A DNA stretch of 64,000 nucleotides, from positions 1-64,000 of the IMG/VR virus record IMGVR_UViG_3300035703_000044. The stretch is one strand, 5' to 3'. The DNA is from a virus. Shown here piece by piece: positions 34,660 through 38,187 of the stretch. A program made the position numbers and the translations under genes. The first letter of the stretch is position 1; the number at the start of each line of letters is the position of its first letter. The notes below the pieces were generated by a model, which was not told where the DNA came from, made no database searches, and saw only the letters and a list, made by a program, of their open reading frames with translations.

Positions 34660-34686
34660 GTAATGCGAACAAACAACAGAGCAGAA

Positions 34687-35256
34687 ATGTATTACACTTA
34701 CGCCTATTTGCGTGAAGATGGAACTCCTTATTATGTTGGTAAAGGTAAAGGAGACCGTGCATATAGAAAAGTAGGAAAACCTTGTGCTACTCCAAAGGAT
34801 AAAAGTAAAATAATATATCTCAAAACAAATCTTACAGAAGAACAATCATTCAACCACGAAAGATATATGATTTTTATTCTTGGTAGGAAAGATTTGGGAA
34901 CTGGTATTTTATTAAACAAATCTGATGGTGGAGAAGGTGCAAGTGGGTGTATTCCAAGTGAAGAAACCAGAAGAAAAAGAAGTGTAAAAATGAAGGGGGA
35001 AAATAATCCTTTGTATGGTAAAAGAGGTAAAGATAGTCCTCGTTATGGTAAAAAACATACACAAGAAACAAAGGATAAAATAAGAAAATCTTTACAAGGT
35101 AATGTCATTTCGGAAGAAACTAGAATAAAGATTAGTGAAAAAAATAAACTAAATCGTCTTGGAGAAAAAAATCCTTTTTATGGAAGAAAACATAGTGAGG
35201 AGACAAAACAAAAAATGAAGGAGGCGGCAAAAAGAAGAAAAGAAAAAGGTGATTGA
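34687..35256 (+). mobile_element. GIY-YIG homing endonuclease with NUMOD3 repeats (copy 1)
   Basis: A coding sequence of 189 residues from ATG 34687 (an in-frame ATG at 34663 is probably upstream of the RNA start). N-terminal GIY-YIG nuclease: YYTYAYLREDGTPYYVGKG contains the paired tyrosines and Gly; Arg and a catalytic Glu region (NHERYMIFILGR) follow. The rest holds NUMOD3 DNA-binding repeats, seen as NNPLYGKRGKDSPRYGKKHT, then EETRIKISEKNK and NPFYGRKHSEETKQKM. It is a stand-alone homing endonuclease inserted between the 34080 gene and gp44, with its own late promoter. A similar gene lies at 45194. Confidence 0.9.
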
Positions 35257-35753: not shown

Positions 35754-36698
35754 ATGGCAAGTGAATTTCTTCTCACGGAAAAGTATCGTCCCCAAGTAAT
35801 TGAGGATTGTATTCTTCCAGATGAAACTAAAAAAACATTTAAGGAGTTTGTAGAGAAGGGTGAGATTCCGAATCTCCTTCTTGCAGGACCTCCTGGTATT
35901 GGTAAGACAACCATTGCCAAAGCATTATGTAACGAACTGGGTGCAGATTATTATGTCATCAACGGATCCGACGAAGGACGTTTCCTGGATACTGTACGGA
36001 ACCAAGCAAAGAACTTTGCTTCGACCGTCTCACTTACGGGATCTTCTAAACACAAGGTCATCATCATCGATGAGGCAGATAACACGGGGAACGACGTACA
36101 ACTCCTTCTACGGGCAAATATTGAGACGTTTTATAACAACTGTCGATTCATCTTCACCTGCAACTACAAGAACAAAATCATTGAACCTCTACATTCCCGA
36201 TGTGCTGTCATTGACTTCACAATCAAAGGAAAACAACGGGTTCAACTTGCAGGAAGTTTCTTTCAACGACTTCAATCAATCCTGGATCAGGAGAAAATTG
36301 AGTATGATCAAAAGGTCGTTGCAGAACTCGTATCCAAGCACTTTCCCGATTTTCGACGTGTTCTGAATGAGATTCAACGATACTCTACTGGTGGTAAAAT
36401 TGACTCGGGTATTCTTGCTTCATTCTCTGATGTTTCGATAAATGATCTCGTTAAAAGTCTCAAAGAAAAGAACTTTGCGGAAGTTCGTAAGTGGGTCGTC
36501 AATAATCTTGATAATGACTCTAGTGTATTACTCCGTCGTCTTTACGATGTTTTACTTACATCCCTTGAAAACCCTAGCATTCCTGCTGCTGTGCTCATTA
36601 TTGCTAAGTATCAGTATCAAATCGCCTTCGTTGCCGATCAAGAAATTAATCTTTTGGCGGCGTTAACTGAAATTATGTGTGAGTGTGAATTCAAATGA
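35754..36698 (+). CDS. gp44: Clamp loader large subunit gp44
   Basis: 314 residues (T4 gp44: 319). AAA+ motifs: Walker A GPPGIGKTT (45-53), Walker B VIIIDEADN (102-110), sensor 1 FIFTCNYKNKI and an SRC arginine-finger motif (LHSRCAVIDF). With gp62 it opens and loads gp45. It is coupled to the next gene by an ATGA overlap. Confidence 0.96.
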   Translation: MASEFLLTEKYRPQVIEDCILPDETKKTFKEFVEKGEIPNLLLAGPPGIGKTTIAKALCNELGADYYVINGSDEGRFLDTVRNQAKNFASTVSLTGSSKHKVIIIDEADNTGNDVQLLLRANIETFYNNCRFIFTCNYKNKIIEPLHSRCAVIDFTIKGKQRVQLAGSFFQRLQSILDQEKIEYDQKVVAELVSKHFPDFRRVLNEIQRYSTGGKIDSGILASFSDVSINDLVKSLKEKNFAEVRKWVVNNLDNDSSVLLRRLYDVLLTSLENPSIPAAVLIIAKYQYQIAFVADQEINLLAALTEIMCECEFK

Positions 36699-37816
36699 TA
36701 TTGAGTGAAGAAGATGCAATTTATGCAGCGAATAAATTCATCGATTACTTCTCTAATATGGGGAGAATTGATGAGTATTTACGTAATATTAAACTGGATA
36801 GAATGAATCAAATGCCTTCATCCATCTTAGGCATTGGTCCTGAAGATGATATGTTTGATGCATTTGATATGCACCCTCAAGATATGAACTTTAAGGTTTA
36901 TACTGCTGGGGAGAAAGGTGGATTTACCAATGAATACTTCAATGAGAGACTTCAGGTTACCACTTCCCACGCAATTGAGGATAGTATTCCTGGTAAATCT
37001 TTAAAGTGGATTGTAATGGAAACCAATACACAAAAGATTGTTGGTTTCTGTCGGTTTGGTTCTCCTACAATTAATTCAAAACCACGCAATGATTGGCTTG
37101 GTCAAACACCAGAACTTTCCCGATTCAATCGTCATGCAATCATGGGATTCATTATTGTTCCCACTCAACCTTTTGGATTTAATTATCTTGGAGGTAAACT
37201 CCTTGCACTTCTCTGTTGTTCTCACACCGCTCGTGAAACCTTAAATAAGAAGTATGGTGCAGATATTTGTTCTTTTGAGACAACCTCTCTTTATGGATCT
37301 ACCAAGGCCTCATCTCAGTATGATGGTTTAAAACCGTATATGAGGTATAAGGGACTGACACAGAGTGACTTTACTCCTCTGCTCCATGACGAAATCTTTC
37401 AAGAGTTAAACAAATGGTTTATTCAGAGGAACAACAACCAATCTCTAGTGAAGGAGGATGCATCCAGTCGCAAACTCAAAACACAACAGAAGATGATTGC
37501 AATCATCAAGAAAAGCTTACCTTCTCAAAAGGTTGCGGAGTTCCAGACTGCGATTGTAAATGCAAAAAATCTAACTGAACAAAAAAGATTTTATATCTCA
37601 GACTATGGGTTTGAGAATGCTCGTGAAGTAATTCTTGGACAGGAAGATGTTTTACGTCCTGGTCAAAATTATGAGAAGTTTCATTTTGATAATCTTGTCA
37701 ACTGGTGGAAGAAAAAGGCTTCTAATCGATATGAAAGTCTTAAGACTGATGGAAGACTCCGTACTGAACTTGAGACTTGGAATAAAAATCCTGATGCAAT
37801 TGATATTATCCGATGA
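36695..37816 (+). CDS. DruA/DUF4338-like protein inside the clamp-loader operon
   Basis: 373 residues. The central region (about 110-230) reads VGFCRFGSPTIN, RNDWLG, NRHAIMGFIIVPTQPFGFNYLGGKLLALLCC, KKYGADICSFETTSLYGSTKASSQYDG and then YKGLT. By eye this follows the order of conserved blocks in DUF4338/DruA, the signature protein of the Druantia defence system (R-x-WIG, NxxRFLILPxVxxxNLASxxL, YGxxPxLxETF, GxT). Identity is modest and must be tested. The N-terminal 100 and C-terminal 140 residues are extra. It is wedged between gp44 and gp62 with ATGA overlaps on both sides, so it is made with the clamp loader. Function is unknown. Confidence 0.65.
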   Translation: MILSEEDAIYAANKFIDYFSNMGRIDEYLRNIKLDRMNQMPSSILGIGPEDDMFDAFDMHPQDMNFKVYTAGEKGGFTNEYFNERLQVTTSHAIEDSIPGKSLKWIVMETNTQKIVGFCRFGSPTINSKPRNDWLGQTPELSRFNRHAIMGFIIVPTQPFGFNYLGGKLLALLCCSHTARETLNKKYGADICSFETTSLYGSTKASSQYDGLKPYMRYKGLTQSDFTPLLHDEIFQELNKWFIQRNNNQSLVKEDASSRKLKTQQKMIAIIKKSLPSQKVAEFQTAIVNAKNLTEQKRFYISDYGFENAREVILGQEDVLRPGQNYEKFHFDNLVNWWKKKASNRYESLKTDGRLRTELETWNKNPDAIDIIR

Positions 37817-38187
37817 GTTACGAATTAAAAGATTGGTTGAATTCCGTTAACTTTACAAAAGAAGACTTGTCTGAGGATATTAGTTCATATCCACCATTTA
37901 TCATCAATCGTTGTCTTTCTGGACATATTGACTGTATTCTTTTTGCAAATGAAATGAATATGTATTCCTTTCTTGATAAAGATATGCAGTATTATTTCTA
38001 TCTAAATAGTCTTAGGAAACGGAAGAGATTTTCTCCCTGGCTCCGAAAGGATAAAGTCAAAGATTTAGAATGCGTTAAACAATACTATGGTTATAGTAAT
38101 GAGAAGGCATCTCAAGCTTTGAAGATTCTAAATAAAGAACAACTAGATTTTATTAAACAACGACTTGAAACTGGCGGAACAAAATGA
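37813..38187 (+). CDS. gp62: Clamp loader small subunit gp62
   Basis: 124 residues, shorter than T4 gp62 (187). Recognisable blocks are LKDWLNSVNFTKEDL, YPPFIINRCLSGHIDCILFANEMN and the helical YYGYSNEKASQALKILN near the C-terminus. gp62 anchors the gp44 tetramer in the loader. Overlap with both neighbours (ATGA at each side) and position before regA match T4 order apart from the inserted DruA-like gene. Confidence 0.9.
   Translation: MSYELKDWLNSVNFTKEDLSEDISSYPPFIINRCLSGHIDCILFANEMNMYSFLDKDMQYYFYLNSLRKRKRFSPWLRKDKVKDLECVKQYYGYSNEKASQALKILNKEQLDFIKQRLETGGTK

Follow-up and report, generated by a model that had tools for sequence, protein, structure and literature searches.

A DruA/DUF4338 protein related to phage Mu Mom alternates with the adenine methylase Dam at one site in the clamp-loader operon of marine T4-like phages

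Overview

The site between the clamp-loader genes gp44 and gp62 of marine T4-like phages is a cassette site with two alternative genes, which were never found together there. The commoner codes for a D12 DNA adenine methylase (dam), and the other (here dru) for a protein of the DruA/DUF4338 family. This family and the DNA modification protein Mom of phage Mu are homologous. The reading that we favor, with a probability of roughly 0.6, is that the dru product is a Mom-like GNAT that takes the place of Dam, modifying the DNA of the phage and so protecting it from restriction. Both the exchange with Dam and the link between DruA and Mom appear to be new, in that neither was found in the open-access literature.

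A DruA-like gene in the replication operon

The window, i.e., the whole stretch of 64,000 nucleotides that was analyzed, is part of a genome represented by an IMG/VR virus record of 93,764 bp. The first-pass annotation had placed an ORF of 373 residues between gp44 and gp62, wedged in by ATGA overlaps on both sides. This arrangement was confirmed by reading the junctions, in which ATGA joins the gp44 stop to the dru start and the dru stop to the gp62 start (TTCAAATGATATT and ATCCGATGAGTT, respectively), and by the assignment of the two flanking genes to phrog_168 and phrog_225 (Table 1). The dru frame (36695-37816, plus strand, 373 aa) is open throughout, and its product matched phrog_19197 over the full length (E 2.5e-192). 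Relatives were detected in 31 phage records, including Synechococcus phages, Pelagibacter phages HTVC008M and Mosig, and marine single-cell viruses, and the gene family extends to hundreds of IMG/VR loci. Purifying selection on the gene is strong (median pairwise dN/dS 0.06), and both the ORF and its conserved family are far beyond chance. An ORF resembling a GIY-YIG homing endonuclease (window positions 34663-35256) was also observed upstream of gp44 in the same replication operon.

Table 1. Features of the gp44-gp62 region, in window coordinates
Feature	Position	Strand	Evidence
gp44 clamp-loader subunit (bounds the cassette site upstream)	35754..36698	+	phrog_168, E 5e-137; ATGA overlap
DruA/DUF4338 (Mom-like GNAT) protein, 373 aa	36695..37816	+	PF14236, 39.2 bits (cut-off 27); AlphaFold2 pLDDT 89.8, GNAT fold
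GNAT-like domain, residues 61-316	36875..37642	+	Part of the model that aligns with Mom 8bv8 (Z 9.7, 187 residues)
Beta4/P-loop region IVPTQPFGFNYLGGKLL, residues 154-170	37154..37204	+	Invariant columns of the marine family alignment; hhalign
ETTSLYGSTKASSQYDGLK, residues 195-213	37277..37333	+	Invariant columns of the marine family alignment; hhalign
gp62 clamp-loader subunit (bounds the cassette site downstream)	37813..38187	+	phrog_225, E 2e-48; ATGA overlap

In most cyanophage-type IMG/VR contigs, dru lies between gp44 and gp62, usually directly against gp62, and variable extra ORFs are present on its gp44 side, with gp44-dru gaps of up to about 1.5 kb. The gene follows gp43 in HTVC008M-type phages, and in Mosig it is located near gp47/gp55, among genes for 2OG-Fe(II) oxygenases, peptide deformylase and MazG. 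The Mosig-like clade (L163-L242) forms a second large DUF4338 branch, from Pelagibacter-type phages.

Relationship to DruA and to Druantia

The window protein matched Pfam DruA/DUF4338 (PF14236) over residues 97-190 with an E value of 6e-10, above the curated cut-off, and all 47 of 47 diverse relatives matched this profile at E 0.1 or better. The match to PADLOC DruA1 was weak (E 1e-5). DUF4338 has been described as a GNAT domain (PMC10853773), and in the available text of the Phold paper (PMC12774648) structures resembling DruA are described for six Synechococcus phages, one of which is S-PRM1 (NC_055761). The DruA resemblance itself is therefore not new. The S-PRM1 homologue, which is 65.5% identical to the window protein, is presumably the protein shown in that paper, because it is the single match in the S-PRM1 record.

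A type I Druantia system was defined here by DruA together with a DruE-type helicase carrying an MZB/DUF1998 domain. No DruE-type MZB domain (PF09369) was detected in 17 dru-containing records, among them the source record (a 93.8-kb genome part), so the locus is not Druantia and such a system was ruled out. Thus, the DruA part of the earlier description of a "defence-type protein" stands, whereas the defence label is misleading, as the Druantia partner is absent and the family is one of Mom-like GNATs.

Homology of DUF4338 and Mom

We compared profiles of bacterial DUF4338, Mom, the marine phage family and generic GNATs (PF00583), with reversed alignments serving as decoys. Bacterial DUF4338 matched Mom with a probability of 97% (hhalign E 4e-11, 169 columns) and the marine phage family with a probability of 96.6% (E 6e-10, 115 columns), whereas neither generic GNATs nor reversed decoys matched any of the three. 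In addition, one bacterial DUF4338 protein matched Pfam Mom directly (E 8e-6, 26.1 bits, with a cut-off of 27.1). The DruA family is homologous to phage Mu Mom. The marine profile gave no direct match to Mom (hhalign E 0.037), and PF25680 (Mom) had no match to the window protein at E 10 and none in record G000; as judged from the profiles, the link between the marine family and Mom runs through bacterial DUF4338. The kinship with DruA/DUF4338 that had been proposed for the window protein is upheld by the curated Pfam score, by this HMM-HMM comparison and by the structural match published for a sister phage (PMC12774648). Separately, bacterial DUF4338 domains were found fused to DDE transposases of several kinds (Tn5-like, DDE_5 and DDE_Tnp_1; L457:38-2404, L454:106-2091 on the minus strand and L459:846-2234). 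The L454 protein also matches Pfam Mom, and the occurrence of Mom-like domains on transposases is noteworthy.

The AlphaFold2 model of the window protein, built from 47 sequences (pLDDT 89.8, pTM 0.84), has the GNAT alpha/beta fold, and GNAT enzymes, many of them protein acetyltransferases, dominate its matches among solved structures. In VIA-align, phage Mu Mom (8bv8) ranked first with a Z score of 9.7. Of its 222 residues 187 were aligned, more than in any other match listed, and the other GNATs listed reached at most Z 9.4 over 134-171 residues. With a lead of less than one Z unit, Mom is tied with these proteins, and its longer coverage is therefore a hint and not proof. Mom was again first when a classic DUF4338 protein (L590; pLDDT 72) was modeled and compared in this way, with a Z score of 10.5 and 10.0 for the next match. 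These first places were specific to VIA-align: Mom was missing from the best 50 Foldseek matches in the PDB, and a sequence-based search of solved structures with the window protein gave no match. Matches among predicted viral structures included the Mom of a Salmonella phage and, among the best of them, function-unassigned proteins of the giant viruses Faunusvirus, Yasminevirus and Dasosvirus (BFVD A0A3G4ZXG3, A0A5K0UAJ3 and A0A3G4ZRA1, respectively; E 2e-15 to 2e-7).

Conserved residues

Several positions are invariant in the marine clade: Q158, G161, N163, G166, G167 and K168 in IVPTQPFGFNYLGGKLL, S198, L199, Y209 and D210 in ETTSLYGSTKASSQYDGLK, and also R345. DruA and Mom align with each other at three blocks, PNLAS/PRNSES(124), ETFVD/SFAD(149) and GTCYRAANW/GVVY(159)QASNF. 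In hhalign alignments, IVPTQPFGFNYLGGKLL faces the first of these blocks in both proteins, and the ETTSLYGSTKASSQYDGLK region corresponds to the second and third (ETFVD...GTCYRAANW in DruA, SFAD149...GVVY159QASNF in Mom). The marine clade reads NYLGGK and ETTSL at the first two blocks, with Gly166/167 opposite Mom S124 and no Asp confidently aligned with D149; thus, the Ser and Asp of Mom are not visibly kept. The S124A mutant of Mom is called inactive in the title of PDB entry 8bv8, and loss of these residues could mean either a new chemistry or a non-catalytic role. Y209 is probably the equivalent of Mom Y159, although it lies beyond ETTS, where the confident alignment ends. When the stretch QPFGFNYLGGK is compared with the CoA-binding loop that follows beta4 in GNATs (R/Q-x-x-G-x-G/A), either QxxGxN or NxxGGK could be placed on it, and both are invariant.

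Mutual exclusion and repeated exchange with Dam

In S-ShM2 and ACG-2014d, the gp44-gp62 site is occupied by the D12 methylase gene. Dam relatives were present in 421 phage records (413 of them cyanophage-named), as against 31 with dru, the position of dam being established for the individually listed records; gp62 occurred in about 461 cyanophage-named records. The nearest kin of the window (96%; L513 and L507) have the order gp44-dam-gp62, and their dam start overlaps gp44 by 4 bases, exactly as dru does in the window. Another relative (L510), whose gp44 is 97% identical to that of the window, has an empty site, in which gp62 is the next gene after gp44. In ACG-2014f (L503, KJ019107.1), the site holds neither gene, and two D12 methylases are encoded elsewhere (130078-130809 and 134349-135011).

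For a survey of the site, relatives were fetched by gp62 alone, so that neither dam nor dru biased the choice of loci, and the set comprised 63 new loci in which gp44 and gp62 were both present (five previously collected dru loci were left out). The site held dam in 40 loci, dru in 21 and neither in two, and no locus held both (Fisher p 9e-15, kinship ignored). On the gp44+gp62 tree, this set required 9 state changes (8-9 in bootstraps, at least 5 of them forced by supported branches), and a larger, dru-enriched set required 16; in both counts the tree labels are clustered and related, and the IMG/VR loci are fragments. The features expected of a substitute for Dam, namely the same site, mutual exclusion and repeated exchange, were thus all observed.

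The exclusion extends to whole records. A D12 methylase was absent anywhere in 22 of 23 dru-containing records, the exception being S-SCSM2R, which has a distant D12 methylase (25%) at 48 kb. Conversely, no DruA-like gene was found in the dam-containing records tested; the scan gave three matches, all of them at loci in which dru occupies the site. A scan of 20 records for N6_N4 methylases elsewhere gave no match, and canonical Mom was absent elsewhere in the dru-containing genomes bar one record, a marine phage contig (the L391 record, G205) that carries a canonical Mom gene (229061-229621, PF25680 E 6e-33) in addition to dru. Depletion of GATC was of no use in telling dam loci from dru loci (0.72 versus 0.78; the group with neither gene is a different lineage). 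Limited capacity of the slot was considered as a cause of the exclusion and rejected, as the site often holds extra ORFs beside dru.

Possible function

Because close relatives hold Dam at the same spot and never both genes, the dru product probably marks phage DNA while it is being copied. Mom is established to protect Mu DNA from restriction (e.g., PMC6483171), and several Mom genes also occur in a replication context: one overlaps DNA polymerase I in Salmonella phage FSL SP-038, one follows polymerase B in Enterococcus phage TV217 and one follows SSB and ParB in Microbacterium phage Antuna. ParB genes adjoin Mom in actinophages, and a ParB_N-DUF4338 fusion (L258:1160-2911) is present in a marine proteobacterial single-cell genome. 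With these as supporting context, we propose a replication-coupled base modification. The DruA-like protein would be made together with the replisome, and as a GNAT-fold enzyme it would transfer a group onto bases, possibly adenine, of newly replicated phage DNA, which may protect this DNA from host restriction as Dam does in sister phages. The simplest reading is a single functional niche that is filled either by Dam or by an unrelated enzyme, a Mom-like GNAT. Of two roles suggested by the first-pass annotation, that of a counter-defence factor is favored in the form of a DNA-modifying enzyme, for which we infer DNA as the substrate, adenine as the base and anti-restriction as the benefit; that of a replisome accessory, if essential, is disfavored because the site is empty in L510 and holds dam in most relatives, and an essential clamp-loader accessory was set aside on account of the empty site.

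The GNAT fold, the many protein acetyltransferases among its structural matches and the gene overlaps, which suggest co-expression with gp44 and gp62, would also suit an acyltransferase acting on a protein (the clamp loader, the clamp, host RNA polymerase or a host defence protein), thereby tuning the replisome or blocking defence, with the Dam swap reflecting two useful early genes at one hot spot. The swap could indeed in part reflect a recombination hot spot favoring any early gene. However, outside DUF4338 the nearest relatives by sequence are Mom proteins and not generic GNATs, the exclusion with the DNA methylase spans whole records although the site often holds further ORFs, and the clamp loader does not need the gene, since a relative with an empty site exists. 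We therefore regard a protein substrate as unlikely.

Another reading starts from the residues themselves. The Mom S124 and D149 equivalents are not visibly conserved and a set particular to the clade is invariant (Q158, G161, N163, G166-K168, S198, Y209, D210 and R345), as might be expected if the protein were a catalytically dead or differently acting DNA-binding relative that masks or guides, replacing Dam in the regulation of replication or packaging and not in anti-restriction. This set, however, lies around the GNAT P-loop and the tyrosine expected to be catalytic, a location that suggests an active site, and selection on the gene is strongly purifying, which makes such a role improbable. 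Even less probable is a phage-borne defence gene, i.e., a DruA derivative for superinfection exclusion that attacks competing phages as in Druantia. The Pfam and PADLOC DruA matches and the structural similarity to Druantia DruA in the available text of PMC12774648 agree with it, but the best PADLOC score is weak, the DruE-type MZB domain is absent in the 17 records and a defence effector would not be expected to alternate with Dam.

More tentatively, and with somewhat less than even confidence, the favored DNA-modifying role may be extended to the whole family: DruA proteins may form a large unrecognized branch of Mom-type base-modifying GNATs, in which a non-methyl modification made by the marine branch stands in for Dam, and Druantia DruA and the transposase-fused DUF4338 proteins also act on DNA bases. 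No biochemical function of DruA was found in the open-access literature. With the Mom homology and the natural exchange with Dam, the question of what DruA does becomes a specific one, that of a modified base in the DNA of dru-containing phages. If the DNA-modifying role is correct, the clamp-loader operon of marine T4-like phages would be the place of one gene for marking DNA, drawn from unrelated chemistries, as would fit an arms race with restriction systems.

Comparison with known systems

The marine protein and DruA/DUF4338 have in common the order of blocks (VG..L+Y, RD..IGW, the P-loop and ET), the GNAT fold and a score above the curated cut-off. In contrast to DruA, the marine protein has no Druantia partners and sits in phage replication operons, and the Ser of PNLAS, the Asp of ETFVD and the GTCYRAANW block of DruA are replaced by N-YLGGK, ETTSLYG and S.YDGLK. 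The six Synechococcus phage DruA-like proteins in the available text of PMC12774648 belong to the same family as the window protein, but that text gives structural similarity only, whereas operon context, Mom kinship and the Dam swap are not reported in it.

Among solved structures, Mom (PF25680, PDB 8bv8) ranks best against the models predicted for the two DUF4338 branches; it shows profile homology to bacterial DUF4338 and likewise adjoins replication genes. It differs from the cyanophage clade in the absence of a direct sequence or profile match and in S124 and D149, and the marine protein has extra N-terminal and C-terminal helical regions. The cyanophage D12 Dam (PF02086; S-ShM2, ACG-2014d and others) belongs to an unrelated protein family with a different chemistry, that of a SAM methyltransferase with a DPPY motif, but it occupies the same gp44-gp62 position and, in the nearest kin of the window, has the same overlap with gp44.
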